Assembly (NCBI RefSeq): GCF_000682775.1
Contig: NZ_AWFI01000001.1
Coordinates: forward strand, 310,001-374,000
Direction: 5' to 3'
DNA length: 64,000 nt
Source: Hyphomonas sp. L-53-1-40
GTDB taxonomy: Bacteria > Pseudomonadota > Alphaproteobacteria > Caulobacterales > Hyphomonadaceae
Part shown: in pieces, positions 3,232 through 33,446 of the stretch
Position numbering within the stretch: the stretch's first letter is position 1
Layout of the letters: each line of letters begins with the position of its first letter
The notes under the pieces: model-generated
Told to the model about the DNA's origin: nothing
The model's input: only the letters and a program-made list of their open reading frames with translations
Database searches by the model: none
Translations under genes and position numbers: made by a program

Positions 3232-4109
3232 CGCGCATTCTTGTTGTTGGAAGGTCGGGACAAGTCGCGCAGGCGCTAGTTTCAGTAGGGGGTGAGCGGA
3301 TCATTTGTCCGGGGCGTCCGGTGGTGGACTTGCTGGACGCAGACTCGCACCTCAGCGCGCTTGACCGTTATGAGCCCATGGCAGTGATCAATACTGGGGC
3401 ATTTACCGCAGTCGATGGCGCCGAGGCAGATGCTGACGGCGCTTATGCTCTGAATGCTAAAGGACCGGGCAACCTGGCGGTTGCGTGCGCGCGGCGTGGC
3501 GTGCCGCTCATCCACATGTCGACAGACTGTGTGTTTGATGGCGCGAAGGACGGCCCTTACACGCCGAATGATGCACCGAATCCGTTGGGCGTGTATGGCA
3601 AGACGAAACTTCAGGGGGAGGTGGCTGTCCGCGAACGGGCTGAACGATCCCTGGTCGTGCGGGTGTCGTGGATATTTTCGCGATTTGGTGGCAATTTCGT
3701 GCGGACCATGTTGAGGGTGGCACAGACCCGCGACGCAGTGAGTGTTGTGAGTGATCAAGTTGGTTGTCCAACGCATGCGCCCGATCTCGCACGGGCTCTG
3801 ATCACAATCGCTGAACAGGCGACTAAGCCTGGCTTTGATAATTGGGGTGTTTACCATGCTGCCGGGGCGGGAGAGACCGACCGCGCGTCCATGACGCGGC
3901 GGATCTATGAGGTCAGCAAGGAACTGGGCGGACCGGTCGCCGATGTGAACGGTATTTTGACGGCGGACTATCCTACGCCGGCGCAAAGGCCCCTGAATGC
4001 GCGGCTTGATATGTCTGAGACCCGGCGTGTTTTCGGGATTGAAATGCCGGACTGGAATATTGGCCTTTCCGAGACGGTTTCCGCGATTATTGCGGAACCT
4101 GCACGATAA
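3228..4109 (+). CDS. rfbD: dTDP-4-dehydrorhamnose reductase
   Basis: Last step of dTDP-L-rhamnose synthesis, reducing dTDP-4-keto-rhamnose with NAD(P)H. The 293-residue protein has the short N-terminal nucleotide motif VGRSGQVAQAL (7-17), STDCVFDG (98-105) and the catalytic YGKTK (Tyr123, Lys127). The start overlaps the rfbB stop. The order B-D-A-C differs from the enterobacterial B-D-A-C only by the 209-base gap before rfbA, which has no gene and may hold an internal promoter. Confidence 0.96.
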   Translation: MTRILVVGRSGQVAQALVSVGGERIICPGRPVVDLLDADSHLSALDRYEPMAVINTGAFTAVDGAEADADGAYALNAKGPGNLAVACARRGVPLIHMSTDCVFDGAKDGPYTPNDAPNPLGVYGKTKLQGEVAVRERAERSLVVRVSWIFSRFGGNFVRTMLRVAQTRDAVSVVSDQVGCPTHAPDLARALITIAEQATKPGFDNWGVYHAAGAGETDRASMTRRIYEVSKELGGPVADVNGILTADYPTPAQRPLNARLDMSETRRVFGIEMPDWNIGLSETVSAIIAEPAR

Positions 4110-4318
4110 GGCTTTTGACCCGTGCGAAGACACTTTTCAGCGGCACATTCGGCGTCGAATTCTCATCTTCTTCGCCGGCCCCCGATGAAAATCGGCATGT
4201 CTATACGTAAGACGCGCGGCCGGGCGATGGCAGTGCAGCTTAAATTCAGTTAGCGGTTGACCAGCCTCGGCGAGATGGTCCAAACCAAGTGGGTAATTGC
4301 TATGTGGAGTTTTGGCGG

Positions 4319-5188
4319 ATGAAGGGCATCGTTCTGGCAGGCGGGACGGGGTCTCGATTGTTCCCGTTGACCAAGGCTGTCTCAAAACAACTGATGCCGG
4401 TTTACGATAAGCCGATGATCTACTACCCACTAAGCGTGCTGATGCTGGCCGGTATTCGAGACGTTCTCATCATCACAACGCCCGAGGATCAGTCCCAGTT
4501 CAAGCGACTGCTGGGAGATGGGTCGATGTTCGGAATCAACATCGAGTTTGCCGTTCAAGAGCAACCGAACGGTCTGGCTGAAGCGTTCATTATCGGCGAG
4601 GACTTTGTGAAGGGCGGCCCGTCAGCGCTGGTCCTTGGGGACAACATATTTTACGGTGCCAATCTCGGCTTGATGTGCGCGCAGGCGGCTGCACAGGCCG
4701 ACGGAGCGACGATCTTTGCCTACAAGGTTGCGCACCCGCAGCGCTATGGTGTTGTGTCCTTTGACAAGGACTTCAAGGCGTTGACGCTGGAAGAAAAGCC
4801 GAGCGCGCCCAAGTCGAACTGGGCGATTACCGGCCTGTATTTCTATGATGAACAGGTCGTCGATATCGCACGCGAATTGAAACCTTCCGAACGAGGTGAG
4901 CTCGAAATCACCGACGTCAACCGCGCCTATCTGGAAATGGACAAGCTGAAAGTGAAGCAGCTGGGCAGGGGATATGCCTGGTTGGACACCGGAACACATG
5001 ACAGTCTGCACGAGGCATCCAGCTTTGTGCGTACGATCGAGCACCGGCAGGGCGTCAAGATCGCCTGTCCGGAGGAGATTGCTTTCGAAAAGGGCTATCT
5101 CGGGCGCGAAGAATTGCTTCATGCCGCAGACCAGCTCGGCAAGACAGAATACGCCGTTTACCTGCGTACACTTGCAAATCAGAATTGA
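4319..5188 (+). CDS. rfbA: Glucose-1-phosphate thymidylyltransferase
   Basis: First step of dTDP-rhamnose synthesis: joins glucose-1-phosphate and dTTP. The ATG at 4319 gives 289 residues, the usual family length; an in-frame start ten codons earlier adds residues the family lacks, and a GGAG precedes 4319 by about nine bases. The nucleotidyl-transfer signature [12 protein letters not shown] is at 7-18, the metal aspartate is in LGDNIFYG (Asp108), and [19 protein letters not shown] and the [10 protein letters not shown] block follow as in all RmlA proteins. Confidence 0.97.
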
Positions 5189-6916: not shown

Positions 6917-8686
6917 CTAGGTGTCGCGTTTTGCCCAGAAGTTCAAAGTTCCCAGCTCTCCCAAGTGCGACATGGGTTTGCTGCGGCTGCGCTTGGCATA
7001 ATTGCCAGACTTCCCGATCTGGTACCGGAAGCCGAGGCGCGTGAGGGTCGAAAGAACATCGTCCAGGGCAATATCTGACGGGTTTGCGCCCAGATGCCAT
7101 TCCACGCACATTTGTTTGACATTGGCGAGAGCATCCCCGGCGGCCATTAGGACTTCTCCTTCAGCGCCTTCGATATCCAGTTTCAGGAATTCCACTTCGC
7201 GATCGAGATAATCTGCCAGAGGTACTGTTTCGATTGTCAGCTCCTCAATTTCATCGCCAAATGTCTTGCGTCGCTCGGTAAGGGATCCTGCCATACTGTA
7301 GTCGCCGGACATGAAGAATGTGGCGATGCCCGGCTTTGCGGCCAAGCCTTTCTTCAACACTGTTACGTCACTCAGCTTGTTGCGGACGATATTTTTCGAC
7401 GCCAGATCGTGAAGGAAGGGGACAGGTTCGAATGCCAGAACCTCTGCATCCGGATAAAGTTCCTTGAAGTACACGCTCGACATCCCGAAATTGGCGCCAG
7501 CGTCGATAATGTAAGGCTTCATCTGATCGGTATCGAAATAGTATTCCTGATCCATGAGGATTTCATGGATCAGTGTCCAGATCGCATGCTTGTCAACATA
7601 GGTCAGCGTTGAATCGCGCATCAGGAATTCCTGCCCGCGGCACAAATGCTCGGTGAAGAAATCTCGCAGTACGATGTCGTTTGGAAAACCACCATCGGGA
7701 ATGGGAGCTGTCTGCAAATCTTTCAGGACCGGGCTGTCGCCGTAATACACTTTCAGTCTGGAAATCATGTCCAGGTACTTCGAAAATCCGTCCAACTGGC
7801 GCTGCTTCATTGGCCAGGCGCCGGACAGGATGCCCACTGCTTCTCTCTCGTTGAGTTGAGAGGTCAGGATGGAATTCCGGACGGAGGAAAGTTCACCAAT
7901 AGCGGCCTGAACTTCTCCGTTTCCAAAGAAAGCCTTTCGGTTGTCATCGCTCAGAGCGTACTCGGTGAGGAATCGGAGATCGCTTCCGAGCGCGTTTCGG
8001 ATTGAAGTAGTCGCAATAGCTGCGGTTTGGACTTCTCCGTTTCCAAAGAAGGCGTTCCGGTTGTCATCGTTCAGAGCGTACTCAGTGAGGAAGCGGAGAT
8101 CGTTTCCGAGTGCGCTTCGGATTGACGTCGTCGCCGTGGCCGCAACCTGAACTTCTTCCTTCCCGAAGAAGGCTTTTCGGTTCTCATCGCTCAAGGCAAA
8201 TTCGGTAAGGAATCGAACGTCATTCCCAAGCGTGCGACGGATAGATGTGGTCGCGGTTGCGGCGGCCTGAATTTCTCCATTTCCGAAGAACGCTTTGCGA
8301 TTTTCGTCGGATAAAGCGGACTGCACAAGAAAACGGACATCTTTGCCAAATTTGTCGCGGATGCCGGTCTGCTTCGATGCAATGGTTCGGATACGGCCAT
8401 CCGCGAAGAACGCATTGCGGTTCTTGTCGGCCAAGACTGAATTGATCAGAAACTCGACATCTCTTCCAAGCCTTTCCCGAATCCAGGGCAGGGCAAGAAA
8501 TCGATCGCGCATACTGGGTCGGCTGGCTACGCCATCAAAGAGCTCCGGCGAATCATCGACGAACGCGCTCAAAAGATCGGACTTTTCTTCAACAGATGTC
8601 GTGCGTTTGACTTCAGCCAGCAGGAGTTGCCTGAACCTGCTGCTTTTCAACAGCAGTCGGCAGAGTTTGGAAATCAGTCTCTTCAT
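6917..8686 (-). CDS. FkbM-family methyltransferase with five N-terminal 40-residue repeats
   Basis: The C-terminal part (about 355-589) is a SAM-dependent FkbM methyltransferase: DAGANFG (396-402) binds SAM, FEP follows at 420-422, and the family mark FLKLDIEGAEGEVL is at 500-513. Such enzymes O-methylate sugars. The N-terminal half is unusual. Residues 69-268 consist of five tandem units of exactly 40 residues with the pattern IR..LG.D.RFL...AL.D.NRKAFFG.GE.Q.AA, probably helical. The gene directly follows wzt, whose C-terminal domain reads glycan ends, so it could be the methyltransferase that caps the chain; that role is inferred. Length is about twice that of a plain FkbM enzyme. Confidence 0.88.
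   Translation of the reverse strand: MKRLISKLCRLLLKSSRFRQLLLAEVKRTTSVEEKSDLLSAFVDDSPELFDGVASRPSMRDRFLALPWIRERLGRDVEFLINSVLADKNRNAFFADGRIRTIASKQTGIRDKFGKDVRFLVQSALSDENRKAFFGNGEIQAAATATTSIRRTLGNDVRFLTEFALSDENRKAFFGKEEVQVAATATTSIRSALGNDLRFLTEYALNDDNRNAFFGNGEVQTAAIATTSIRNALGSDLRFLTEYALSDDNRKAFFGNGEVQAAIGELSSVRNSILTSQLNEREAVGILSGAWPMKQRQLDGFSKYLDMISRLKVYYGDSPVLKDLQTAPIPDGGFPNDIVLRDFFTEHLCRGQEFLMRDSTLTYVDKHAIWTLIHEILMDQEYYFDTDQMKPYIIDAGANFGMSSVYFKELYPDAEVLAFEPVPFLHDLASKNIVRNKLSDVTVLKKGLAAKPGIATFFMSGDYSMAGSLTERRKTFGDEIEELTIETVPLADYLDREVEFLKLDIEGAEGEVLMAAGDALANVKQMCVEWHLGANPSDIALDDVLSTLTRLGFRYQIGKSGNYAKRSRSKPMSHLGELGTLNFWAKRDT
7883..8482 (-). repeat. Five tandem 120-bp in-frame repeats inside the FkbM gene
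   Basis: Unit length is exactly 120 bases (40 codons). Units two to five are most alike, for example the segments ending at 7980 and 8100 differ at only a few bases. The first unit is more diverged. Because the unit is a multiple of three, copy number could change by slippage or recombination without breaking the reading frame. Confidence 0.9.
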
Positions 8687-8758
8687 AATCGGGCGCTTTG
8701 GCTACTTGCGATGAGGAATGGCGGCAGTGTATCTGACCCGCCCGTACAATTGGGGGCG

Positions 8759-10198
8759 TTAATTCGACACTTTGAAGATATTGTATTGATACTGCATGCT
8801 GATCGGGTTCCACACCATGAAGCGGTTGGGCGATACTTTGAATTCAAGGATCGCGTCGCGCCACAGATATGCATTGCCTTCGTGGATGGATATCGTGACA
8901 ACATAATACCCAGCGGCAAATGGAATGTCGGCAATATTCACACGACAGAGGACCCTGCTGTCGCCATTCTGCTTCAATAGGTCACCGTTCAAGGTAGAGA
9001 TGGTTGAAAGGCGTTTGCCGTCCTTGGTGTGGAAGACGAGAGAGACGTTCAGGTCGTTGATGGGTCGTTGTGGCGTGAAGCCGAATTCAATGGCGAATGG
9101 CTTGTTTACCTGAAGCGTATTGGTCGGCTGGCCATCGGAAAGCACGACAGCGCGAAAATCCTGAAAGCCCGTGGGTTCTATGTGCCCACCATAAAGCTCT
9201 TCGACCTGATTTTCGGATATGGTCGGTCGTTTCCACTGAAGCTGTGGGTTCTGGGCCAGGAAGCTCTTGTCTGGATCGTCGATGACCTTGTTGTCCTTCG
9301 GCGTCAGATTGCTCCAACGCTGCGCGACTTTCGCCGAAAGTGGCCGGGCAGGCTGTGTTGGAGCGTGCTGCATCGGGGGGCTGGCCTCGGTCAGGGCCGC
9401 TGCCGGCTCTTCATTGCGCGACATCTCCTGATCAATGAATTCGAGATATTGCGCCGTAACTTGGTCGACCGGGCCGTCAGCCTGCAGTTCGCCCGCATGA
9501 ATCCAGAGTGCACGGTCGCAGAACTGCCTGATGCTCGTCATCGAGTGTGACACCAGCAGCATGGCAACGCCCTGCTGTTTCATGGCCTGCAAGTGCAGCT
9601 TGCATTTGTTCTGGAAGGCCAGGTCTCCCACGGACAAGGCTTCGTCGATCACAATGAGATCGGGCCGCAGGAATATGCAGAGTGCGAAACCAAGCCGCGA
9701 TTTCATGCCGGAGCTATAGGTTTCCACTGGTCCATCAATAAAGGCGCCGACCTCGGCAAAGTCTATGATCTGTTCCACAAGCTCTGGACTGCGCTTTGGA
9801 CTGATTCCGCGCATGCGCATGCCGTTGAGAATGTTTTCACGACCGCTGAGCCGTTGATTGAATCCCGCCCCCAGATTGATCAGTGCCTGAATCTCACCAT
9901 TGATCGAGACGTGTCCCTTTGTCGGGGCAAGAAGGCCCGACAACAGCTTCATGAGCGTTGTCTTTCCGCTGCCGTTTCGGCCGATCACGCCCACGGCATC
10001 TCCGGGGCGGATATCCAGGCTCACATCACGCAGGGCCCAGAATTCTTCTTCATCGCGGTCATGCTTTGGAGGGAGGCAGAAGATGTTGCCCAGTATGTCG
10101 TTGAAATTGCGCGACACATTGTTCTGCCGCCGTCTGGGAAAACTACGGCCGATCTGCGAGGCGGAGATGATGGGGCGTTGCGTACTCACGTCAGACAT
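8759..10198 (-). CDS. wzt: Polysaccharide ABC transporter ATP-binding protein with Wzt C-terminal domain
   Basis: ATPase of the exporter that moves a finished lipid-linked polysaccharide across the inner membrane. Residues about 10-250 are the ABC domain: Walker A GRNGSGKT (73-80), signature YSSGM (161-165), Walker B LIVIDE (181-186) and the switch histidine in LLVSHS (about 218). The 479-residue length comes from an extra C-terminal domain (about 320-479) of the Wzt carbohydrate-binding type, as in systems such as E. coli O8/O9 where Wzt recognises a terminal modification on the glycan. It overlaps wzm by eight bases and is followed by the FkbM methyltransferase, which may make that modification. 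Confidence 0.94.
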   Translation of the reverse strand: MSDVSTQRPIISASQIGRSFPRRRQNNVSRNFNDILGNIFCLPPKHDRDEEEFWALRDVSLDIRPGDAVGVIGRNGSGKTTLMKLLSGLLAPTKGHVSINGEIQALINLGAGFNQRLSGRENILNGMRMRGISPKRSPELVEQIIDFAEVGAFIDGPVETYSSGMKSRLGFALCIFLRPDLIVIDEALSVGDLAFQNKCKLHLQAMKQQGVAMLLVSHSMTSIRQFCDRALWIHAGELQADGPVDQVTAQYLEFIDQEMSRNEEPAAALTEASPPMQHAPTQPARPLSAKVAQRWSNLTPKDNKVIDDPDKSFLAQNPQLQWKRPTISENQVEELYGGHIEPTGFQDFRAVVLSDGQPTNTLQVNKPFAIEFGFTPQRPINDLNVSLVFHTKDGKRLSTISTLNGDLLKQNGDSRVLCRVNIADIPFAAGYYVVTISIHEGNAYLWRDAILEFKVSPNRFMVWNPISMQYQYNIFKVSN

Positions 10199-11000
10199 AA
10201 GCTCTCATGGTACGATGATAAGCGAACCAGCTGACGCAGAAGAGCGCCATGATGCCGAGGGCAACATAAAAAAGCGGCAGGATGTGGGACAGGCTGGGCG
10301 AGAGCAGGCAAAAGCGCAATTCCTCGATCGTCAGAGCAACCGGATTGCCATGCTTGAAAATGGCGAGCCCTCCGGTGAGCGGGAAGACCGCGCCCGAGAG
10401 GTACAGCATCGGCCGGGCAATCACGCCAACGGCCAGCTTCAAGTCGCCGGAAACGAGCGTAAATGGCGCAAAAAACAGACCTACCGCGACTCCGCCGAGG
10501 GCGCAGATTGGCGACATGGCAATAAACAGCAACGCATTCTGCCATTCCAGCAATCCCTGAGCGGCCGCGAGGCCGAGCACGATTGGGACACGCATGCAGA
10601 GCAGGAACAGGGATCTGAACACCATGGCCATCATCAGGCTTTCAGGCGGCATGGCATAATTGCCGATAAGTCCACTCGCGCGCTGAAGCGATGTCAGGGA
10701 CATCATCATGCCGTCGAAGAATGTTTGCCAGATCAGGATGCCACTGACAGCAAAGAGGGAAAACGGCATGTTGAGCCCGCTGACTTCCAGCGACCCACTG
10801 CTGCGCAGGGCGATGAAAACGCCAGCGATCGCGAGGGGCTCGATAAAAGCCCAGAACAGGCCCATCTTCGTGTGAACATATTCGATGCGAATATCACGGG
10901 CGGCAAGGTTCCAACCCTGTCGTGGTGCGCTGGAGACTCCGCCGAACATGTCGGCGAGGGTCTGCTTTGCCTTGCTGAAAGCCGCTGAACTCAACTGCAC
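10191..11000 (-). CDS. wzm: Polysaccharide ABC transporter permease
   Basis: ABC-2 type membrane subunit of the polysaccharide exporter, 269 residues. The N-terminal cytoplasmic stretch RDIRIEYVHTKMGLFWAFIEPLA is followed by about six hydrophobic membrane segments, including FALRSSG-flanked and VAVGLFFAPF helices, as in KpsM/Wzm proteins. The stop region overlaps the start of the ATPase gene, so the pair is translationally coupled. The 153 bases upstream hold no gene and may carry a promoter. Confidence 0.92.
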   Translation of the reverse strand: MQLSSAAFSKAKQTLADMFGGVSSAPRQGWNLAARDIRIEYVHTKMGLFWAFIEPLAIAGVFIALRSSGSLEVSGLNMPFSLFAVSGILIWQTFFDGMMMSLTSLQRASGLIGNYAMPPESLMMAMVFRSLFLLCMRVPIVLGLAAAQGLLEWQNALLFIAMSPICALGGVAVGLFFAPFTLVSGDLKLAVGVIARPMLYLSGAVFPLTGGLAIFKHGNPVALTIEELRFCLLSPSLSHILPLFYVALGIMALFCVSWFAYHRTMRAYV

Positions 11001-11153
11001 TACTCCTTCGTCTCCATTATCGTCATTGACGCAATGGGCCGATGTATTTTTACGGCTCGAAATGCGGACACCGGAATTTGGCCCAGTTTAGGGTATTTTT
11101 CGCTGGTTTGGAGTCGCAGGCAAGGCGGTCAAGCATGAAAAATAAAATAGAAT

Positions 11154-12392
11154 TCAAGGTTTTACGGCCTTTTTGTGTGGTTCCGTCTGATGGGCTGTGC
11201 CCGCCACAGATTCAAACAGCGCCACGATCCGTGACGCACTTGCTGACGGGTTATGCCCCCGCGATACGCGCTTTGACAAGTTCTCATCAACGGTCCCGTT
11301 GGCCGTCACCAGAGCGCTGACGTCGCGCCCCATTGCCTTTGCGTCGAAGTCGGCAATGAGATGTCCGGCTTCATAATTCCGCACAAGGTCAGCAGCGCCG
11401 CCCCCATCTGCAAAGGCCAGCACAGGCACCCCAAGCATACCGGCCTCGATGGCGACGCGCGGATAGGGGTCTTCGCGCGAAGTGATCAGCACGGCGGACG
11501 CTCTGCGAAAGTAAGCATATGGGTGAGCTTTGACGCCTGGAAACAGCACATTTGATTCAAGGCCAGCCTCATGGACGGTGTGTTTGAGGCTCTGCATCAT
11601 GTCGCCATCGCCGAGCCACGCAAAGACCAGCCGGCCAGCGCCGTCATGCATGTTGAGGGCTGTTTTGGCAGCCTCAACGAACAGGTCGGGTCCCTTGCGA
11701 GGGATCAGGCTTCCAGCGCCAATAATGAGTGTGTCCAGCTCGCCAAGTTTCAGGTCGTCATTCACGTCGCCGCGCGCTGCATCAGCAGCAGCCATTTGCT
11801 CCGGGGGTATTTTAACGGCCGGAGGTTCGACCCGAAGTTTTTCGTCCGGCACGGAGAAGTCCTGCGACAGGTCCCTCATGACGCTGCGGGACGCGCACAG
11901 AAACATGTCCGTCTTGTTCATCGTGCTCTTGAGACGCCGCGCATCAAGCGCGCGGATTGTCGGCCCCATTTCACGCACGTGCGTGACGATTGGGGTGTCG
12001 AGGTCAAGCTCGTCAACGACATCGCCGCAATGCGTTGTATTTGCGTAGATGATGTCGGGCTTCCAGTTCCGGATCTCCTGTCGGAGTCTTGCGGTGCGCT
12101 GCCGATCTTGCCGTCCGAGACAATAGGGTCTGTCCGGGGAGCGCACGCATTTTATTGCCATAAGTGGGTCGAATCGCAGGGCTGTGCTCAATCCGTCGGA
12201 CAGGTCGAATTGCGGTGACTCACGCCAGATATGGGTTGGGGCCGTTTCGCGATAGGCCTCGCCCAACTCGCCACCGCGCCGAAGGATGATCGTCAACTCA
12301 TGGCCCAGCGATATCATCTCCCGTGCCAATTGCAGCGCACTGATCGGGGCGCCGGTACGATCGGCAGCATGGGAAATCATGAGAATGCGCAT
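11154..12392 (-). CDS. Glycosyltransferase family 4
   Basis: Retaining GT-B fold glycosyltransferase of 412 residues. It opens with RILMISHAADRTGAPISALQLA, the nucleotide-side glycine loop of GT4 enzymes, and has SLIPRKGPDLFVEA, ARVAI-type EAGMLGVPVLAFADGG and the conserved acidic residue in TSREDPYPRVAIEAG. Two bases separate it from the DUF115 gene upstream. The same two-gene pair, DUF115 then GT4 with the same SGAPIS-like start, occurs again at 20.1-22.2 kb, so this is one half of a duplicated cassette. Its donor and acceptor cannot be read from sequence. Confidence 0.9.
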   Translation of the reverse strand: MRILMISHAADRTGAPISALQLAREMISLGHELTIILRRGGELGEAYRETAPTHIWRESPQFDLSDGLSTALRFDPLMAIKCVRSPDRPYCLGRQDRQRTARLRQEIRNWKPDIIYANTTHCGDVVDELDLDTPIVTHVREMGPTIRALDARRLKSTMNKTDMFLCASRSVMRDLSQDFSVPDEKLRVEPPAVKIPPEQMAAADAARGDVNDDLKLGELDTLIIGAGSLIPRKGPDLFVEAAKTALNMHDGAGRLVFAWLGDGDMMQSLKHTVHEAGLESNVLFPGVKAHPYAYFRRASAVLITSREDPYPRVAIEAGMLGVPVLAFADGGGAADLVRNYEAGHLIADFDAKAMGRDVSALVTANGTVDENLSKRVSRGHNPSASASRIVALFESVAGTAHQTEPHKKAVKP

Positions 12393-12394
12393 GA

Positions 12395-13279
12395 CTATGA
12401 CTTGTCAGGGAACAGTGAGTGAAAGTCGACTCTGTCGAACACGTCCAGCTTTCCCCCGATACCTGCATTGTATATATGACGTCCTGCGTCTTCAAATGCA
12501 GCGCGGGCAACGCCAAAGGCCTGATTTTGCAGGTCAAAATTTGGTATGCCGATGACATCCCCGACTTGATAATAGTCTTTCGTGAAATGCGCTTGATTCA
12601 CCAGATCGATATTCTCTTCCGACACGTGGATCTTACCCGGCGGGAATTGTTCCGCCAGCGGTCCATAGTCCATATCTACGCCGATCAGATAAACCGGATC
12701 GCAGCCAAGATGGTAGGCGAGCTGGAGCGCGATGTAGCTGATCGTGGATCCAAGGTAGACCGAATGAGAAAAGTCACGCGAGAACTGAATGCCGGGATCT
12801 GTCCAATAGGCTTCGTCGGCAAGCCGCGCATTCATGAACAGAAGGTTGTTCCAGGGGCGCGCGATCCCATGCGCATTATAGATGGCGGCAATCTTCAGCG
12901 GCCCATCTATATTTCGAATATCCTGACCACGAATTTCGGTCTGCTCAATGTCCTCGAACAACAGGTAATCCGGGGTAAAGCCCCATTCCTGAAACGCCTT
13001 GTAGGCGCCGTTTGAGGCAATCGTGATCTCGTCCTTCAGCGCGGAAAGGTCCATGTTGCGAAGGCTGGGGCCATTGCCCAGTACGAAGGCGCGGCGGCCC
13101 TTGCCCGAATTCTTCAGTGCCGCAAGCTTGCGCTCGTCGCCCGGCACGATGCCGATGCGAAGACCGCGTGCATCCTGTTTCAGGCCGATACGATCATAAT
13201 AACGCTGGCGCGCAGCGCGCAGGCGCAGATACCCCAGCGGGTACTTCCATTTCGGAAAGTTGCGGGACCAGCTGATCAT
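12395..13279 (-). CDS. DUF115 / MptE-like protein, copy 1
   Basis: A 294-residue protein of the DUF115 family (named after MptE, a 6-hydroxymethylpterin diphosphokinase), which in polysaccharide and flagellin-glycosylation loci is thought to be a glycosyltransferase; similarity in style to GT42 sialyltransferases has been noted for the GNGPSL motif. Here LGNGPSL is at 67-73, followed by a TIASNGAY segment and VYLGSTISYIALQLAYHLGCDPVYLIGVDMDYG. The protein is clearly paralogous to the one at 20.1 kb over its full length. It is the first gene of the long minus-strand series ending with the UDP-glucuronate epimerase. Confidence 0.85.
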   Translation of the reverse strand: MISWSRNFPKWKYPLGYLRLRAARQRYYDRIGLKQDARGLRIGIVPGDERKLAALKNSGKGRRAFVLGNGPSLRNMDLSALKDEITIASNGAYKAFQEWGFTPDYLLFEDIEQTEIRGQDIRNIDGPLKIAAIYNAHGIARPWNNLLFMNARLADEAYWTDPGIQFSRDFSHSVYLGSTISYIALQLAYHLGCDPVYLIGVDMDYGPLAEQFPPGKIHVSEENIDLVNQAHFTKDYYQVGDVIGIPNFDLQNQAFGVARAAFEDAGRHIYNAGIGGKLDVFDRVDFHSLFPDKS

Positions 13280-13639
13280 TGGGCGACCGCTTTGGTACTG
13301 AGAGGAGCAGGTTGGCTTGTGCGATCGGCGTGAAGGTGACGCATGATCCTTGATAGGGGCCGTTCATGATCAGGATTAATACACATGAACTCAAAGCGAT
13401 CTTTTGGCGAATCGGTCAGGGCGAAAGCACCTGCACGCTAGACGCCTCCGATCCCCGTTTCAATCTGCTAGCAGGTAAGGCGGCTGCGTGTGTTCAGGCA
13501 ACGCTGGTGGTTGAAGTGTTCAAGCGCTGTGGCAGTCGGCCATCATACTTGATAATTTGAGGGACACGGCCTATCGCTGGCCCGGACGAGCCCTGACCTC
13601 TTCTGGGGGCGCAACTTACAGATTGAAAGTGAGACTATC
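13280..13639. other. Intergenic region between divergent DUF115 and SIS genes
   Basis: 360 bases separating two divergent genes, so promoters for both directions are expected. No believable protein is seen; the 64-codon frame inside it lacks family character and a ribosome site. A short dyad TTGAA-gtg-TTCAA lies at 13511-13523. I cannot point to a clear promoter. Confidence 0.45.
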
Positions 13640-14209
13640 GTGGCTGCAGATACCCAGTTCCTGAACGATTATTTCGGCAGATTGGAAACCTTCGCGCGCC
13701 CCAATGACGCGGTATTCGAGCAATTGGGGCAGGTGCGTGACCTGTGGGTCCGGTCGAAAAACGCAGGTGGCAAGGTGATCTTCATCGGCAATGGTGGGTC
13801 TGCAGGAATTGCATCGCATCTCGCGATTGATCTTGGCAAGAACGGCCACATTCCGGCGGCATGTTTCAATGATGGCGCTCAAATCACCTGTCTCTCCAAT
13901 GATTACGGATTCGAGAACTGGATTGCCCACGCTCTGCGGATTCAGGGCAAGCCAGAAGATACGCTGGTTGCGATCAGCTCGTCCGGTGGCTCAAAGAATA
14001 TTCTCAATGCTGTCGAGCAGGCCCGCAAAATGGGGATCTCCGTTACGACGTGTTCTGCAATGAACCCGGAAAACCCGCTTCGCAAACTCGGAGATGTAAA
14101 CCTCTGGGCCGACAGTCACGCCTACAATATCGTCGAGACGGTTCACCAGTTCTGGATGATGGCCGTTATCGACATGATCATCGGCAAGGCCGAGTATCCG
14201 CCGAATTGA
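13640..14209 (+). CDS. SIS-domain sugar isomerase (GmhA-like)
   Basis: A 189-residue SIS-domain protein of the GmhA/DiaA type. The phosphosugar-binding motifs are GNGGSA (50-55) and SSSGGSKN (113-120). GmhA makes heptose 7-phosphate from sedoheptulose 7-phosphate, but no other ADP- or GDP-heptose genes are in the window, so the substrate is uncertain. It starts at a GTG preceded by a GAAAGTGAG stretch. It is a lone plus-strand gene between two minus-strand groups and converges with the SGNH gene, 25 bases away. Confidence 0.82.
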   Translation: MAADTQFLNDYFGRLETFARPNDAVFEQLGQVRDLWVRSKNAGGKVIFIGNGGSAGIASHLAIDLGKNGHIPAACFNDGAQITCLSNDYGFENWIAHALRIQGKPEDTLVAISSSGGSKNILNAVEQARKMGISVTTCSAMNPENPLRKLGDVNLWADSHAYNIVETVHQFWMMAVIDMIIGKAEYPPN

Positions 14210-14234
14210 TCGGCAAAAAATTCAGATACCAGAG

Positions 14235-15410
14235 CTATTGTTCTGGTGTCTGGCCTAGGGCGGACTCGGCAAGTGCCGGTGAAGAATCCAGCGCAAAAAG
14301 TGTTTCGAATACCGTATCGCCAATCAGCTTGTTTCCCTGATGGTTGGGGTGGCGGGGATCGTGGTAGAGTCCTGTTTTTCCTGCAAATACGTCGCTGATG
14401 TCCGTGCAGTACATAAGTTCTTCGCAATGGCGACGTGCTGCCGTGTAAAAAGCTGCCGCTTTTTCAGCGTAGTCAGGTTTTGAGCTGAGCATTGCGGCGT
14501 AAAGCTCGGCTTCCGAATCGGTCGGCATGTAACCTGGTTCGATTCCCATGGCTGGCTGCAGGAATACATGGAAGCGTGCGCCCATTTGCGCGCTGGCCGC
14601 ATTCATCAGCTCAACGTTGCGGCGCCACATTTCTGCATCTGTCATTTCGTAGCTAGAGCCTGCTGTCACGGTGAGCTGAGTATCTTTCTCGCCGCCTGAT
14701 TTCATGGCGGCCACCAGGTTCGGCATGAAGCGTGGCGGTTGGTGTCCTTTGCCGGCGAGTGTTCTGAGCATCACGAGCTGATAGGGGCTGACCATGGGGT
14801 GCTCGCGCAGGCTGTGTGAGAAGTTCAGATCATTGACGCCGCTGAGTGAGACCACAACATCTGGCGCAAGCGCCGGGACATCGCGAATAAGCTTTAGCAG
14901 TTCCTGATTGGTCGAGTATCCGGATACCGCGCCATTGTAGACGACCGCAGGTCCTGTCGGGCCTTCATTGAGGCGCGTGAAAAGGGTTTCGCTCCAGGCC
15001 CCCCAATCGCTCTCATAGTAGGGATCGCTCGTACTGCCACCGAGCACAACCAAGCGCAGCGCAGCGCCACTCGTCTCGTCGCCTGACGTCCGGAAACCGG
15101 GCCGGCGCCAAGCGGGCTCAGACGTAGGGCCGCCTGCCGGTCGCGCATATCCAAGTTGCGGGTCGAGTACGTTCAGTCCCTGCGACAACCGACGGTCTAC
15201 GACGGTTTCCTTTTTGCCCTGCTTGTCGGAAGACTGCCAGACCAGTGAGTATTGAGGTGCACCCTTTGCGCCCAGATACGCTCTCGCCATCAGGTCGGTA
15301 GCCAACAACAGAATCAGCGTTGCCAAGATTGTGAGGATACCGAGCACGATCTTTGCCTGTCGGCTCAAGACAACGCTATGCGGTGTTTCCGAAAGTGGTT
15401 GTTCGTTCAT
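14235..15410 (-). CDS. Membrane-anchored SGNH/GDSL hydrolase (SxtL position)
   Basis: A 391-residue protein with an N-terminal membrane anchor (about 20-43) and an SGNH hydrolase domain outside. Block I is GGST (Ser about 126), the glycine block is VYNGAVSGYST, the Asn block is SGVNDL (Asn193) and the catalytic pair is in DPRHPNHQGN (Asp351, His354). Such enzymes usually remove or transfer acyl groups on sugars. It is the last gene of a same-strand set SxtJ-like, DUF5989, carbamoyltransferase, SGNH, the order of the sxtJ-K-I-L module (sxtL is a GDSL-type hydrolase). It probably edits or transfers groups on the exported polymer; that is inferred from context. Confidence 0.85.
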   Translation of the reverse strand: MNEQPLSETPHSVVLSRQAKIVLGILTILATLILLLATDLMARAYLGAKGAPQYSLVWQSSDKQGKKETVVDRRLSQGLNVLDPQLGYARPAGGPTSEPAWRRPGFRTSGDETSGAALRLVVLGGSTSDPYYESDWGAWSETLFTRLNEGPTGPAVVYNGAVSGYSTNQELLKLIRDVPALAPDVVVSLSGVNDLNFSHSLREHPMVSPYQLVMLRTLAGKGHQPPRFMPNLVAAMKSGGEKDTQLTVTAGSSYEMTDAEMWRRNVELMNAASAQMGARFHVFLQPAMGIEPGYMPTDSEAELYAAMLSSKPDYAEKAAAFYTAARRHCEELMYCTDISDVFAGKTGLYHDPRHPNHQGNKLIGDTVFETLFALDSSPALAESALGQTPEQ

Positions 15411-15448
15411 GTCTCAGGCACCGCTCGGTGTTGTCTTTGGTGATCGTG

Positions 15449-17293
15449 TCAATCGAGATCGAAAGCGTTCTTGTAGTCAAGCACGAGGGCAGGATCCTGA
15501 TCCGACTTGCGCAGTATGGCGCGGCCGCAGACCAGTAGATCCATCTCCGTTCCCATCAGGCAGCGGAATGCGTCGCCAGGAGATTCCACAATGGGCTCCC
15601 CGCGAACATTGAAACTGGTGTTCACAACAACTGCGCAGCCGGTCCTCTGCTTAAACGCGCTGAGCAGCTTGTGGTAGAGCGGGTTCGTCTCGGCATGCAC
15701 CGTTTGCACGCGCGCGGAATAATCAAGATGGGTTATTGCCGGGAGCGTCGAGCGGATGTCGTTCACGCGATCGATGCCATGTTTGGAAGAGCTGTCTGAC
15801 TCAGGCTGTACGCGCAGTCGATCGACAACATCAGCGACGAGCAGCATGTATGGACTGTCGCTGTTCAGGTCGAAATAGTCTGCTGCATCTTCGGCCAGTA
15901 CGGACGGGGCAAAGGGGCGGAAACTTTCGCGAAACTTGATCTTCAGGTTCAGGTTGCGCTGGGTTTCGGGATTTCGTGGGTCGGCAATGATCGACCGGCC
16001 GCCCAATGCGCGAGGGCCAAATTCCATACGCCCCTGAAACCAGCCAATTGCCATACCGCTATCCAGCGCTTTGGCGGTGGTTTGGATCATCGTGTCCTCG
16101 TCCACGACCTCGAATACAGCGCCAGCTGAGGTCAAGGCTGCGTTGATATCTTCCTGCGAATAGTCCGGGCCGAGATAGGCGCCGCTCATGGCATCGCCGT
16201 CACCCGTCAGGAGGCGATCGGTGTCCAGATAACGATGGTGGGCTAGCAAGGCCGCGCCGAGCGCGCCGCCGGCATCACCTGCTGCGGGCTGGACCCAGAT
16301 ATTCTTGAAGTGGCCGTCCCGCAGGATTTTGCCATTGGCAACACAATTGAGGGCGACGCCGCCGGCCATGCAGAGATTGTCGATGGCGAACTCAGCGTGT
16401 AGCGCGCGGGTCATGCGCAGCATCACATTCTCTGTCACTTTCTGGATCGATGCAGCCATGTCGAAGTGGAACTGCGTCAGCTGGCTCTCAGACGTGCGCG
16501 CAGGCTCACCAAACAGGTCGTGGAAAGCCTTGTTGGTCATTTGCAGGCCGGTGACATAGTCGAAATAGCGCATGTCCAGCCAGAAGCTGCCATCATCGGC
16601 AATGGAGATCAGCTTCTCTTCCATGAGGTCTGCAAATCGCGGCTCGCCATATGGTGCGAGCCCCATAACCTTGTACTCGCCGGAATTGACCTTGAAACCG
16701 AGATACCCCGTGATCGCGGAATAGAGCAGGCCCAGTGAGTGCGGGAAGCGGATCTCCCGAATGCGCCGTAATTCCTTGCCTCTGCCGACAGAGACCGACG
16801 TGGTGGCCCATTCGCCGACCCCGTCCATTGTCAGGACAATCGCTTCGTCGAAAGGCGAGGGATAAAATGCCGATGCCGCGTGACTGTCATGATGCTGGGC
16901 AAACACCATACGGTTGCCCGCATCAGGATCATTGAAATCATCCCGGAAGATCTTTGCCATGTTCGACTTCTGGAAGAGCTTTCCCTTGATCCAACTCGGC
17001 ATGGCGATCGCAAATGTCTTGCGACCGCGCGGGGCGCTGGTCAGGTAGGTCTCGATCAGGCGCTCAAACTTGAGCAGCGGTTTCTCGAAATAGGCGATGT
17101 GTTGCACGTCGCTGAGCTCGATGCCCGCTTCGTCGAGACAATAGCGCGTCGCTTTTGCCGGAAAGCCTGCATCATGCTTGACCCGGGTGAAGCGTTCTTC
17201 CTGGGCGGCTGCGACGATCTTGCCGTCGCACAGCAGAACGGCCGCGCTGTCATGGAAGTAGGCTGAAATGCCCAGGATATATGTCGGCATCAC
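15449..17293 (-). CDS. O-carbamoyltransferase (NodU/CmcH/SxtI family)
   Basis: Transfers a carbamoyl group from carbamoyl phosphate, via carbamoyl adenylate, to a hydroxyl. The 614-residue length is normal. The N-terminal Kae1-like part starts ILGISAYFHDSAAVLL and has the HHDSHAASAF metal-site segment and MDGVGEWATT. The C-terminal YrdC-like part has FQGRMEFGPRALGGRSI, the family mark. A start at GTG 17293 or the ATG three bases later are both possible; no strong ribosome site is seen because the DUF5989 stop is only a few bases upstream, suggesting coupling. In this locus a sugar hydroxyl is the likely acceptor. Confidence 0.93.
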   Translation of the reverse strand: MMPTYILGISAYFHDSAAVLLCDGKIVAAAQEERFTRVKHDAGFPAKATRYCLDEAGIELSDVQHIAYFEKPLLKFERLIETYLTSAPRGRKTFAIAMPSWIKGKLFQKSNMAKIFRDDFNDPDAGNRMVFAQHHDSHAASAFYPSPFDEAIVLTMDGVGEWATTSVSVGRGKELRRIREIRFPHSLGLLYSAITGYLGFKVNSGEYKVMGLAPYGEPRFADLMEEKLISIADDGSFWLDMRYFDYVTGLQMTNKAFHDLFGEPARTSESQLTQFHFDMAASIQKVTENVMLRMTRALHAEFAIDNLCMAGGVALNCVANGKILRDGHFKNIWVQPAAGDAGGALGAALLAHHRYLDTDRLLTGDGDAMSGAYLGPDYSQEDINAALTSAGAVFEVVDEDTMIQTTAKALDSGMAIGWFQGRMEFGPRALGGRSIIADPRNPETQRNLNLKIKFRESFRPFAPSVLAEDAADYFDLNSDSPYMLLVADVVDRLRVQPESDSSSKHGIDRVNDIRSTLPAITHLDYSARVQTVHAETNPLYHKLLSAFKQRTGCAVVVNTSFNVRGEPIVESPGDAFRCLMGTEMDLLVCGRAILRKSDQDPALVLDYKNAFDLD

Positions 17294-17446
17294 TTAGAAC
17301 AGGGAGTAAATGAACGGGGCTAATGGTGAGCCTTGTGCAAACACCAGCGCCCCGCCAATCAGCAAAACGAACAGGAATACAGGCAACAACCAGAATTTCC
17401 TGCGCTGCGAAAAGTATAACGCCAGCTCTTTCAGAATCTCTTTCAT
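17294..17446 (-). CDS. DUF5989 family small membrane protein (50 aa)
   Basis: A 50-residue protein starting MKEILKELALYFSQRRKFW, followed by one hydrophobic helix (about 19-37, LLPVFLFVLLIGGALVF) and the conserved tail AQGSPLAPFIYSLF. This matches the DUF5989 family end to end, from memory of the family. It lies one base after the SxtJ-like stop (TGAgATG) and its TAA ends at 17294, just before the carbamoyltransferase start at 17290-17293. Its place matches sxtK of saxitoxin clusters, also about 50 residues. The role is unknown; a membrane partner of the carbamoyltransferase is a reasonable guess. Confidence 0.9.
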   Translation of the reverse strand: MKEILKELALYFSQRRKFWLLPVFLFVLLIGGALVFAQGSPLAPFIYSLF

Positions 17447-17447
17447 C

Positions 17448-17858
17448 TCAGAACTGTCTCTCCATTGCGGCCCGGTCCTGAGGATCCGTCGATTCGCACC
17501 AGTATGAGCCGGTTTGGGGCCTCTTGTGAATGCGCAATGGATCGCGCCCCATACGCAAGAGCAGGCCGTAGGGCGTAATGAAGCCGTAATACATGATGCC
17601 CATCACAAGCGGGTTGACGATCTTGGCCAGACCCAGTGCAAGCAAGCCCCACAAATATGCGAGTCCCTTCAGCCAACGCGGCGCGACGAAGGCGACGAGC
17701 GCAAACAACAGGGCTGCGCCCGCGAGGGCCAATGATAGCTGAACATGGTTGCGCAGCAGGACGGCCGCGATCGCGGAAACGGCTGCGAATGTGTATCCGA
17801 CACTACGGGGGGAGGCCGGAGGCGGTGCAGTGTGTTCGACCTTTTCGAAGGCACTCAT
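17448..17858 (-). CDS. SxtJ-like membrane protein
   Basis: A 136-residue protein from the ATG at 17858 (MSAFEKVEH); the open frame continues 80 residues upstream but that part is low-complexity and overlaps the acyltransferase gene antisense-free spacer, so it is left out. Hydrophobic helices lie at about 25-40, 45-65 and 70-105, and the end ETGSYW-like segment (QTGSYWCESTDPQDRAAMERQF region) fits the SxtJ family. It precedes the DUF5989 gene with one base between stop and start. Together with the carbamoyltransferase and SGNH genes it repeats the sxt gene order. Function unknown. Confidence 0.78.
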   Translation of the reverse strand: MSAFEKVEHTAPPPASPRSVGYTFAAVSAIAAVLLRNHVQLSLALAGAALLFALVAFVAPRWLKGLAYLWGLLALGLAKIVNPLVMGIMYYGFITPYGLLLRMGRDPLRIHKRPQTGSYWCESTDPQDRAAMERQF

Positions 17859-17953
17859 CCTGTCGTCCCGCTTCTCACTTCGGCTTCGCGCTCGTCTACC
17901 CCGATTGGTTCCTGGCGGCAATGTCTTGCACGTCTGGTACGCGTTGCGGAATT

Positions 17954-19867: not shown

Positions 19868-20067
19868 ATGATTTCTTTGTTTCGCTGGCTTCAAGTCTTG
19901 GTACGGTCTCATGAGGTCGCTGCCAAGAAATGACCGCTGTCAATGTTGTCCGTCTAGAGTTTATTGCCTAAGGGAGTCTAATTGCTTGCCTTTGACTGGC
20001 AAGACACGTGCGGGGCTGTTTCGTGCATATTGAGCGACGTTTTACGTCGGTGGGAGTTTCCGAGAAA

Positions 20068-20946
20068 ATGATTGTTTGGACCAACAGGTTTCCTGAAAAG
20101 GAAAAGGCTGCCGGTTATTTGCGTCTCGTGCGGGCGCGCATGAATTTCTTTGACCAGATCAAGCCGGGTCGCAACGGTGCTGGCAAGTTCGGGTTTTATC
20201 GCCGGCCGGGATTCCAGACGACGCTGCGCCACATGCGCAACAAGCACCAGGGCAAGCCGGGATTCATTATCGGGAATGGTCCGAGCCTGAAGGAAATGGA
20301 CCTGACGCCGCTGCGCGACCAGATCACGTTCGGGGCCAATGGCATCTACCAGATGTTCGACGAATGGGGCTTCCACACCAAATATCTCCTGTTCGAAGAT
20401 ACAGAGCAGACCGAGTTGCGCCGCAAGGAAATCCACAATGTTGTGGGGCCGACCAAAATGGCGGCGATCTACAACGCGTACTGTTTCAAGAATTTCAACG
20501 ACACGCTGTTTTTCAATGCGCGCCGGGGAGACCCGTACTATTTCGACGAAATGGGAATCCAGTTCTCCCGTGACTTTTCCAACATCGTGTATCTGGGCTC
20601 GACCATCACTTATATCGCGTTGCAGCTGGCCTACTATCTGGGCTGCAATCCGGTCTACCTGATTGGCGTCGATCACAGTTATGGTGCGCTGGCCAAGAAT
20701 TTTCCGCCCGGCAAGATCGAGGTGACCAAGGAGAACTACGAACTCGTTCGGCAGTGCCACATGAACCCCGATTATTACCAGATCGGAGACGTGATCGGCG
20801 TGCCAAACACCTCACTTCAGGACAAGGCTTATGAAGTGGCCGCCGACGCCTACAAGCAGGCTGGCCGCGAAATCTACAATGCCGGCGTCAACAGCTTCCT
20901 TGATGCATTTCCCCGAACAGATTTTGACAGCATTTTCAAAAAGTAG
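20068..20946 (+). CDS. DUF115 / MptE-like protein, copy 2
   Basis: A 292-residue paralogue of the minus-strand DUF115 protein at 12.4-13.3 kb, sharing its start (MIVWTNRFPEKEKAAGYLRL versus the other copy's MISWSRNFPK), the GNGPSLKEMD motif, the LGSTITYIALQLAYYLG segment and the FPPGKI block. The ATG at 20068 is chosen because it lines up with the other copy and has a GGGAG upstream; the frame extends 20 residues further. It is followed after two bases by a GT4 gene, exactly as in the other copy. Likely a glycosyltransferase, not shown. First gene of the plus-strand assembly series. Confidence 0.85.
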   Translation: MIVWTNRFPEKEKAAGYLRLVRARMNFFDQIKPGRNGAGKFGFYRRPGFQTTLRHMRNKHQGKPGFIIGNGPSLKEMDLTPLRDQITFGANGIYQMFDEWGFHTKYLLFEDTEQTELRRKEIHNVVGPTKMAAIYNAYCFKNFNDTLFFNARRGDPYYFDEMGIQFSRDFSNIVYLGSTITYIALQLAYYLGCNPVYLIGVDHSYGALAKNFPPGKIEVTKENYELVRQCHMNPDYYQIGDVIGVPNTSLQDKAYEVAADAYKQAGREIYNAGVNSFLDAFPRTDFDSIFKK

Positions 20947-20948
20947 AC

Positions 20949-22151: not shown

Positions 22152-22175
22152 GGCTTGAACCAAGTGGGGTATCCA

Positions 22176-23147: not shown

Positions 23148-23179
23148 GCTTGTCCGCACGTGCTTGTTCAGGGGCTGGC

Positions 23180-30734: not shown

Positions 30735-30767
30735 TTCTTCACTCCTAAAACTCTACGCTGGGCGTCG

Positions 30768-31496: not shown

Positions 31497-31649
31497 AGCT
31501 GGATTATCTACTCGCGTATCAATTCGGTACGGAATTCGAAGCCGTGAGGTGTTCCCTGACCTGAGGGGCTTTTGATAGGGTAGTTGCTCCCCTAGAACAA
31601 GGCGTAATGCAGGAGCAAACGGCATGACTCATTCAGGCATTCTGATTTC

Positions 31650-32432: not shown

Positions 32433-32466
32433 GCGGGATACGCATCTCGGGACAGGAGAAACTTCA

Positions 32467-33426: not shown

Positions 33427-33446
33427 ACCGAAAGGCTTGTTGCCGC

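Follow-up and report, generated by a model that had tools for sequence, protein, structure and literature searches.

A tandem-repeat stem on an FkbM methyltransferase encoded beside wzm and wzt in Hyphomonas: a possible terminator of surface polysaccharide chains

The locus and its genes

The window analysed here, a 64,000-nucleotide stretch of the genome of Hyphomonas sp. L-53-1-40 (contig NZ_AWFI01000001.1), encodes on its reverse strand the two subunits of a putative ABC exporter, Wzm and Wzt, followed directly by an FkbM methyltransferase with a stem of tandem repeats (Table 1). The genes are closely packed, with an 8-nt overlap between wzm and the start of wzt and a spacing of 72 nt from wzt to fkbM. 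Wzm has no Pfam match of its own and is probably the membrane subunit on account of its identity to the Wzm of a Marinicaulis MAG (L031; 58%) and to that of another genome (G160; 30%, E 1e-34), the latter of which matches ABC2_membrane. Wzt matches ABC_tran at 1.7e-20 and Wzt_C at 1.8e-9 (38.2 bits against a cutoff of 30.4), which bears out the C-terminal domain that an earlier, sequence-only reading had seen in it. The FkbM protein likewise passes the cutoffs of PF05050 (60.5 against 22.7 bits) and of NCBIfam TIGR01444 (7e-25; 88.1 against 37.7 bits). Each is the only match of its kind in the genome (PF05050 at E ≤ 1e-5, Wzt_C at E ≤ 0.001), and the two adjoin.

The GT4-type and MptE-like genes belong to a core shared with related clusters, which also holds a cytidylyltransferase-like gene (33447-34133) and an aminotransferase gene. 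Another methyltransferase gene in the window, MT22155 (22155-23147), encodes a short coiled-coil-like stretch at its N-terminus and has no counterpart at E ≤ 1e-8 in the L031 or G160 cluster.

Table 1. Positions in the window of the genes, domains and repeat units discussed in the text
Feature	Position	Strand	Basis
MptE-like (PF01973) protein, shared core	12395..13279	-	Pfam and cluster comparison
GT4-type glycosyltransferase, shared core	11154..12392	-	Pfam; identity 47% to L031 and 41% to G160 cluster
wzm, putative ABC exporter membrane subunit	10191..11000	-	Similarity to L031 and G160 Wzm
wzt, ATPase subunit with C-terminal carbohydrate-binding domain	8759..10198	-	479 aa ORF
Wzt_C putative cap-reading domain, residues 354-456	8831..9139	-	Pfam and A. 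aeolicus alignment
Repeat-stemmed FkbM methyltransferase, 589 aa	6917..8686	-	ORF, Pfam and NCBIfam
Cationic amphipathic N-terminus, residues 1-18, possible membrane anchor	8633..8686	-	
Repeat unit w1, residues 69-108	8363..8482	-	
Repeat unit w2, residues 109-148	8243..8362	-	
Repeat unit w3, residues 149-188	8123..8242	-	
Repeat unit w4, residues 189-228	8003..8122	-	
Repeat unit w5, residues 229-268	7883..8002	-	
Linker region, residues 284-392	7511..7837	-	Kept in all three members
FkbM methyltransferase domain, residues 395-555	7022..7504	-	PF05050 3e-16

The repeat stem

The sequence-only reading had described five 120-bp units of exact length in the FkbM gene after wzt, and five gap-free 40-residue units were indeed recovered in the protein alignment. 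A profile made from these units and three units of the L031 member finds exactly five, at residues 69-268 (DNA 7883-8482), so that the stem lies N-terminal to the FkbM domain at 395-555. Tandem Repeats Finder (TRF) reports a period of 120 with 0% indels, 77% matches and 3.3 copies over 7902-8296, and the lag-40 similarity of residues 61-275 (3.09) was reached by none of 2000 shuffles (best of lags 38-42; mean -0.63, SD 0.11). The units are far from near-identical, which corrects any impression of a uniform array: protein identity is 62-75% among w2-w5 and 38-48% between w1 and the others. Pairs within w2-w5 have a dN of 0.15-0.31, while dS is saturated in five of the six, and the array does not stem from recent slippage; judged from these substitution patterns, the units are maintained by purifying selection. 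The 40-residue register is exact and indel-free in two lineages, with Asp19 in 8/8 units and Gly6 in 5/8.

The stem has no Pfam match at the curated cutoff, and sub-cutoff matches to PF21624, PF20762 and PF09675 (E 0.0006-0.0035) were judged to be chance. Against PDB sequences (E ≤ 1), the 40-residue profile gave a single match at E 0.16. By a crude heptad score, in which windows with Pro or at least two Gly are skipped, the window protein peaks at 0.32 (residues 1-42) and five FkbM-coiled-coil controls at 0.63-0.80, and the stem is not an extended coiled coil. Among the 23 window genes scored the best value was 0.53, below the control level, so no long coiled-coil terminator is seen in the window; the FkbM protein of G160, the sole gene scored from the L031 and G160 clusters, reached 0.33.

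Residues 1-18 combine a hydrophobic moment of 0.73 with a net charge of +6, placing this N-terminus second of 216 among mechanical ORF starts. The N-terminus of the G160 member is ordinary (moment 0.50, rank 23/216), and the L031 member has no strong amphipathic helix (top moment 0.37 in 40 windows from the likely GTG start).

Related clusters

Three full members were found, namely the window protein and those of L031 and G160. The L031 member has three units of the 40-residue repeat and the same order wzm-wzt-fkbM, whereas in the G160 member the same linker and FkbM part follow 12 clear units, or as many as 16 counted in register, of another repeat 46 residues long. Linker identity is 57% and 34% over residues 284-404, a stretch that takes in the first 12 residues of the FkbM part. 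Homologues away from wzm and wzt, which the sequence-only reading had named as evidence against itself, did not appear: all three members are clustered with these genes, two directly after wzt and that of G160 at 7.0 kb within one cluster, and at least nine genes are common to the three clusters.

Copy number differs by whole units between the 40-residue stems (five against three), and in G160 the stem is made of another unit. The G160 stem has no Pfam match at E ≤ 0.5, and its 46-residue profile matches no PDB sequence at E ≤ 1. Homology of the two repeats was not detected with single-unit profiles, and in hmmsearch no cross-matches occurred among the best 60 listed per profile (E to ~7); with two-unit profiles, hhalign gave a marginal score of 12.7, which was reached by 5 of 300 column shuffles. 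At the level of profile comparison, the 40- and 46-residue stems are thus not demonstrably homologous, and for this reason the whole-unit difference rests on one pair. Such mutual non-detection would be expected if stem length matters above stem sequence.

A scan of genome contigs for exact peptide patterns, which reaches close relatives only, gave one further member, and genus and family sweeps (1/28, 1/109, 1/62 and 1/105) each returned a known member. The whole-protein search of 150 relatives gave 35 matches in 30 genomes, with the stem covered only in its own. An order-level profile search matched 3 of 398 genomes, two of which had built the profile. The linker profile matched 3 of 385 genomes of the class and 2 of 398 of the phylum, in full only in its own genome each time; the other matches were partial and were FkbM proteins without a stem. 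No member was found in viral contigs, and none of 34 matched plasmid records covered 80% of the query, the best 15 of the 34 all beginning at residue 338 or beyond.

The Wzt reading domain and the cap pocket

Among 299 genomes of the order, a profile of the three reading domains matched at E ≤ 1e-84 only in the three members, the next-best matches (~1e-10) lying in four other genomes. As there is no fourth strong match among these genomes, this type of reading domain was not seen without the repeat-stemmed FkbM protein. Such co-occurrence of writer and reader would also be expected from block transfer of one cluster, given the nine shared genes.

Searched against the PDB (E ≤ 10), a profile of the carbohydrate-binding domain (CBD) matched four sequences, all Wzt chains, with the isolated CBD 8dky/6o14 at the top (E 0.04-0.05). 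The entries 6O14 and 7K2T are Wzt of Aquifex aeolicus, and 8DKY also appears in the same text; in this protein the cap methyl lies against Leu300, Thr346, Ala348 and Trp362, and the chain is coordinated by His350 (PMC9445017). In an alignment that is weak (E 0.04) and in which the window trap loop is five residues shorter, T435, S437, H439 and W446 of the window Wzt align with Thr346, Ala348, His350 and Trp362. The pocket Trp is present in 3/3 FkbM-linked CBDs and in 0/5 other aligned Wzts (Tyr in four, His in one). The pocket His and Thr each also occur in two of these five, so that Trp alone among the pocket positions divides the two groups in this way; the Ala348 position holds Ser in all three members and Ala in all five others. 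Conservation of A. aeolicus Tyr233 was considered and dropped, as this residue aligned with Leu252. The Trp pattern lends some independent support to a writer-reader link, as far as aligned residues can indicate it.

A possible route to chain termination

These features could be brought together in a reading that we favour tentatively, as possible though somewhat short of an even chance, in which the window protein is a methyl-capping chain terminator read by Wzt and its stem is a spacer for minimum chain length. The FkbM protein would end the growth of an ABC-exported surface polysaccharide by placing a methyl group on the non-reducing end of the lipid-linked chain as it is built, and this methyl cap would halt growth. 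The C-terminal domain of the adjacent Wzt would then read the cap and let the chain into the Wzm channel; reading by Wzt is suggested by the biology of Wzt_C and by the cap-pocket residues. The N-terminal amphipathic helix may anchor near the membrane a stem of tandem units that are predicted to be helical. If rod-shaped, the stem could keep the catalytic domain off the membrane-bound polymerase, such that only stem-spanning chains would be capped and extra units would give longer chains. Since relatives have three or about 12-16 units, the stem may set the length of the surface sugar chains. It is possible, though less likely than not, that the arrangement amounts to a polysaccharide ruler of countable helical units, with a stem anchored in the membrane that bears FkbM at its far end, Wzt checking the methyl mark, and 40- and 46-residue stems fitted to the same head so that chain length would be tunable stepwise by whole units. 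If true, a stem built of repeats would allow the ruler idea to be tested unit by unit; it would suggest that spacer length counts and not spacer type, and the known chain terminators would gain a further kind of enzyme.

A fairly unlikely alternative retains a methyl-capping terminator read by Wzt but regards the repeats as a helical-repeat scaffold on which the polymerase, a glycosyltransferase or Wzt docks and not as a ruler, unit number following binding needs and not the length of the chain. Helical repeats often bind proteins, and strong purifying selection on the units suits a binding surface better than a mere spacer. Solenoid stems would, moreover, be short: a naive estimate at ~1 nm per unit gives the 40-residue stems only ~3 and ~5 nm, which is short for a ruler. 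The Klebsiella pneumoniae O4 terminator, in which a TPR-like bundle stands beside the coiled coil, offers a parallel (PMC11231755). For a conserved docking surface, however, it is unexpected that G160 has a different unit of undetectable relation in a stem several times longer. Neutral or structural expansion of the repeats with no role in chain length is already disfavoured and highly improbable; presence of the protein in only 1 of the 105 searched genomes of its own family would suit it, but inter-unit dN lies far below dS, and the exact register is kept in both lineages.

FkbM enzymes form a broad family with many different methylation targets elsewhere. It is therefore conceivable, but unlikely, that the window enzyme acts within the glycan chain or methylates some other sugar or lipid, with chain termination left to a different enzyme; the gene neighbourhood would then reflect nothing beyond a common O-antigen cluster. 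The cytidylyltransferase-like, aminotransferase and MptE-like genes of the shared core point in this direction, since with them a CMP-derived sugar could serve as the cap, and Kdo caps exist in other systems (PMC9445017; PMC11231755). The presence of a second methyltransferase, MT22155, also fits this reading. Against it stand the lack of a match to MT22155 (E ≤ 1e-8) in the other two clusters and the methyl-stacking Trp position of the linked CBD, and a stem on a purely internally methylating enzyme would be left unexplained.

Comparison with known systems

An extended coiled coil is described as a characteristic marker of terminator rulers for ABC-exported glycans (PMC11231755). A close parallel is WbdD of Escherichia coli O8/O9a, which is also a stem-borne methyltransferase encoded with Wzm and a cap-reading Wzt (PMC3482155; PMC11231755). 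The window protein likewise unites a methyltransferase and a stem, here a presumptive spacer, in a cluster with wzm and a putatively cap-reading wzt, and its amphipathic N-terminus, strong here but ordinary in G160 and weak in L031, may be a counterpart in kind, on the stem end away from the catalytic domain, of the WbdD membrane helix (PMC11231755). In contrast to WbdD, it is of FkbM type with no kinase found, its stem consists of tandem 40-residue units and not of a coiled coil, and this stem is N-terminal where that of WbdD is C-terminal (PMC3482155; PMC11231755). By analogy, the window protein may follow a WbdD-like logic with a repeat stem in place of the coiled coil and the domain order reversed, with a presumptive ruler step. 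In the Klebsiella systems ORF7-O4 and ORF6-O7 a spacer again carries the terminator at its end; O4 has the extra TPR-like helical bundle and O7 joins a methyltransferase to the spacer, but both retain a coiled coil and have other catalytic domains (PMC11231755). Similarly, the E. coli O101/O162 enzyme is a methyltransferase with a spacer beside wzm/wzt and a proposed ruler, required for O-methylation that is taken as terminal capping; it differs in its annotation as ubiG2, in a C-terminal coiled coil and in that FkbM does not appear in the text of the paper (PMC13168486).

For the methyl-capped O antigen of A. aeolicus, the capping enzyme is unnamed in the main text, which does not use the word methyltransferase (PMC9445017). 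The likeness of its WzmWzt to the window lies in the identical Thr346, His350 and Trp362, set against the weak overall similarity, the shorter trap loop and the change of Ala348 to Ser.

To our knowledge, WbeT/RfbT of Vibrio cholerae O1 has no repeat stem. For the G160 member, the RfbT Pfam model (PF05575) scores below its cutoff (24.6 against 27.9 bits), and the window protein has no match to it at E ≤ 0.1. WbeT/RfbT adds a methyl group to the terminal perosamine in the side chain of O1 LPS, and strains without the methyl (Inaba) remain O1 LPS serotypes (PMC5051702).

A fusion of FkbM, coiled coil and glycosyltransferase occurs in the same genus, 1.2 kb from wzm/wzt (G035, L041), and in L041 it is accompanied by a Wzt without a Wzt_C match. 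FkbM-coiled-coil proteins of relatives were considered as the same system and set aside for L037, L038, L039 and L042, which have no match to the window Wzm or Wzt; of the six such neighbourhoods, L040 and L041 do match one or the other.

Repeat array of the FkbM protein

The repeat array and the gene neighbourhood of the window FkbM protein are solid. Both open reading frames proposed by the sequence-only reading are confirmed, the first encoding a methyltransferase with its FkbM domain at residues 395-555 (PF05050 3e-16; TIGR01444 also matches) and the second a Wzt in which an ABC ATPase is joined to a Wzt_C (reading) domain. These two neighbouring genes hold the single FkbM match and the single Wzt_C match of their own genome. 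The 120-bp units described in the FkbM gene also stand: TRF returns a 120-bp period with zero indels, five 40-residue units (w1-w5) are alignable without gaps, and the lag-40 similarity score was reached by none of 2000 shuffles. The same five units were recovered by a profile search, the profile being built from them and three units of a relative, L031.

Features of the window and of related loci
Feature	Locus	Position	Strand	Remark
FkbM methyltransferase ORF	window	6917-8686	-	589 aa
wzt ORF	window	8759-10198	-	479 aa
Putative wzm	window	10191-11000	-	upstream of wzt
MptE-like and GT4 pair	window	11154-13279	-	
MptE-like and GT4 pair	window	20008-22151	+	
Second methyltransferase	window	22155-23147	+	Methyltransf_24
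Glycosyltransferase	window	23150-24718	+	
Sugar-metabolism-like gene run	window	29685-34133		
FkbM ORF	L031	7890-9419		immediately behind wzm and wzt; three 40-residue units
FkbM fusion	L041 (G035)	12634-15936	-	1100 aa
wzm/wzt	L041 (G035)	17165-18836	+	divergent from the fusion
FkbM-coiled-coil protein and wzt	L040 (G132)	3349-4779 and 9505-11163	+	

Residue identity is 62-75% among w2-w5 and 38-48% for w1 versus the rest. Pairs among w2-w5 have dN of 0.15-0.31, with dS saturated (returned as not computable) in five of the six and 0.52 for w4-w5, and pairs with w1 have dN of 0.43-0.61, with dS at least 1.6 or saturated. Because dN is low while dS is mostly saturated, the units are, on their substitution rates, old copies under purifying selection. 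Furthermore, we think them too divergent for assembly to collapse the array, since nucleotide identity between them is 49-80%. Over eight 40-mers (five of the window, three of L031), I1, F11, L12, D19 and F25 are invariant, position 5 is hydrophobic throughout and D8 occurs in seven, while Gly6 is found in 5/5 window and 0/3 L031 units. Judged by sequence, this pattern reads as short helices with breaks and not as a heptad coil, in agreement with a crude heptad score of 0.32 for the window protein (at residues 1-42), compared with 0.63-0.80 for five coiled-coil controls.

Relatives and gene neighbourhood

When 84,980 species genomes were scanned with sequence patterns, a method that detects close relatives only, one relative emerged: L031, from a Marinicaulis MAG, whose protein has the same linker and FkbM domain as the window protein. 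A profile made from the N-terminal region and linker of these two proteins matched 3 of 398 genomes of the order, namely the source of the window, the Marinicaulis genome (G321) and G160. Searches at class and phylum level and in three families added no member; those at class and phylum level and in the G160 family covered samples drawn from larger groups. The G160 protein (1060 aa) has a stem with a period of 46 residues and a higher order of 138. Up to 16 rows of 46 residues fall into register, of which rows 1-3 and row 16 are poorly alike, and 12 clear units are recognised by a profile built from those 12. The 40-mer and 46-mer profiles gave no cross-matches, and their profile-profile score was marginal (reached by 5/300 column shuffles). 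The two stems are not detectably related in sequence, so one linker-FkbM head bears two stem types that differ greatly in length.

Nine of the 23 window query genes have relatives in both the L031 and G160 clusters: those for an aminotransferase, FkbM, Wzt, Wzm, a GT (11154), an MptE-like protein (12395), SIS, an oxidoreductase (29685) and a cytidylyltransferase-like protein (33447). The G160 fkbM gene lies 7.0 kb from wzm, and both are on one strand. The two MptE-like/GT4 pairs of the window are apparently paralogous and match one and the same L031 pair, the genes of the second pair (MptE 20008 and GT 20949) having the same targets as the 12395 and 11154 genes. That the sugar-metabolism-like run ends in the cytidylyltransferase-like gene (PseF and KdsB model matches, below cutoff) suggests a CMP-linked sugar in the window glycan. 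The glycosyltransferase at 23150 has, by eye, a helical-looking tail C-terminal to its GT domain, which is absent among the matches listed for both repeat profiles.

The reading domain of Wzt

A reading-domain profile built from the three members, which are hence its own matches by construction, gave E <= 1e-84 in these members only and about 1e-10 in four others among 299 genomes. As there was no fourth strong match among the 299, writer (FkbM methyltransferase) and reader (Wzt) travel together within the genomes searched, a co-occurrence equally expected from block transfer of one cluster. No FkbM was seen beside wzt in the four weak-match genomes by BLAST with four FkbM queries; at one weak match, L055, an FkbM-like ORF lies about 6 kb from wzm.

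All PDB matches of the reading domain (four sequences, E <= 10) are Wzt chains, the best being the isolated CBD 8dky/6o14 (E 0.04-0.05). In A. aeolicus Wzt (6O14 and 7K2T), the chain is capped by a 3-O-methyl sugar whose methyl group occupies a pocket of Leu300, Thr346, Ala348 and Trp362, and the chain itself is coordinated by His350 (PMC9445017). Window Thr435, Ser437, Trp446 and His439 align with Thr346, Ala348, Trp362 and His350, respectively, PDB chain numbering being the paper's plus 1 by our own count. The Trp446 position is Trp in all three FkbM-linked domains, and when five further Wzts from the order were aligned, four had Tyr there and one had His; the Ala348 position is Ser in 3/3 members and Ala in 5/5 others, and the His350 and Thr346 residues each recur in two of the five. 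Among the pocket positions compared, only Trp sets the two Wzt groups apart in the same sense. Its retention in the FkbM-linked domains is, by alignment, a fair hint that the mark read by the window Wzt is a methyl group.

A possible capping mechanism

Of the known systems, the WbdD class of E. coli O8/O9a comes closest. There, a terminator caps the chain end, export requires the cap, and chain length is determined by a coiled coil that lies between the catalytic sites and a polymerase site close to the membrane (PMC3482155, PMC11231755). The window FkbM protein has neither the coiled-coil stem nor the domain order of WbdD, and so at most works like it. By analogy, its FkbM domain would cap the glycan chain, the neighbouring Wzt would read the cap, and the repeat stem would hold the FkbM domain apart from the membrane, which an N-terminal cationic amphipathic helix may bind.

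Methyl-capping of the chain by the window enzyme is likely. A rival terminator candidate, the second methyltransferase, has a short N-terminal coiled-coil-like stretch and no counterpart in the L031 or G160 clusters. A ruler role of the repeat stem is plausible but more tentative than capping, and the stem would be of modest length if the units form a solenoid, which counts against it. Similarly, the window helix has a hydrophobic moment of 0.73 and a net charge of +6, ranking second among 216 mechanical ORF starts, but those of G160 (0.50, rank 23 of 216) and L031 (0.37 at most) are weaker and count against an anchor.

V. cholerae RfbT/WbeT provides a precedent for terminal methylation (PMC5051702), and the RfbT Pfam model is matched by the G160 member, below cutoff. 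In E. coli O101/O162, a spacer-bearing methyltransferase is needed for O-methylation, which is taken as terminal (PMC13168486). An FkbM enzyme tied to wzm/wzt, O-antigen chain length, a methyltransferase of an ABC-transported O-polysaccharide or a polysaccharide coiled coil was not found in the searched literature, which omits most subscription papers; six papers that mention FkbM alongside terminal O-antigen methyltransferases seemed unrelated to the question, going by their listing.

Other FkbM proteins with coiled coils

The fusion in L041, from a genome of the same genus, is encoded 1.2 kb from wzm/wzt, the Wzt there having no Wzt_C match. It combines an FkbM domain, a coiled-coil stretch with a heptad-like pattern and a glycosyltransferase domain, and looks like an FkbM version of a methyltransferase-coiled coil-GT terminator. 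Long coiled coils also form the C-terminal part of the FkbM proteins of L002, L003, L005 (called by heptad score) and L006 (by eye), from genomes G030, G079, G053 and G077, respectively, the coiled coil of L002 including a 74-residue tandem repeat. The window Wzm/Wzt are unmatched in four coiled-coil FkbM neighbourhoods of 18-20 kb each (L037, L038, L039, L042). In L040, about 5 kb separates the gene for an FkbM-coiled-coil protein from a wzt gene, the product of which matches Wzt_C below cutoff.
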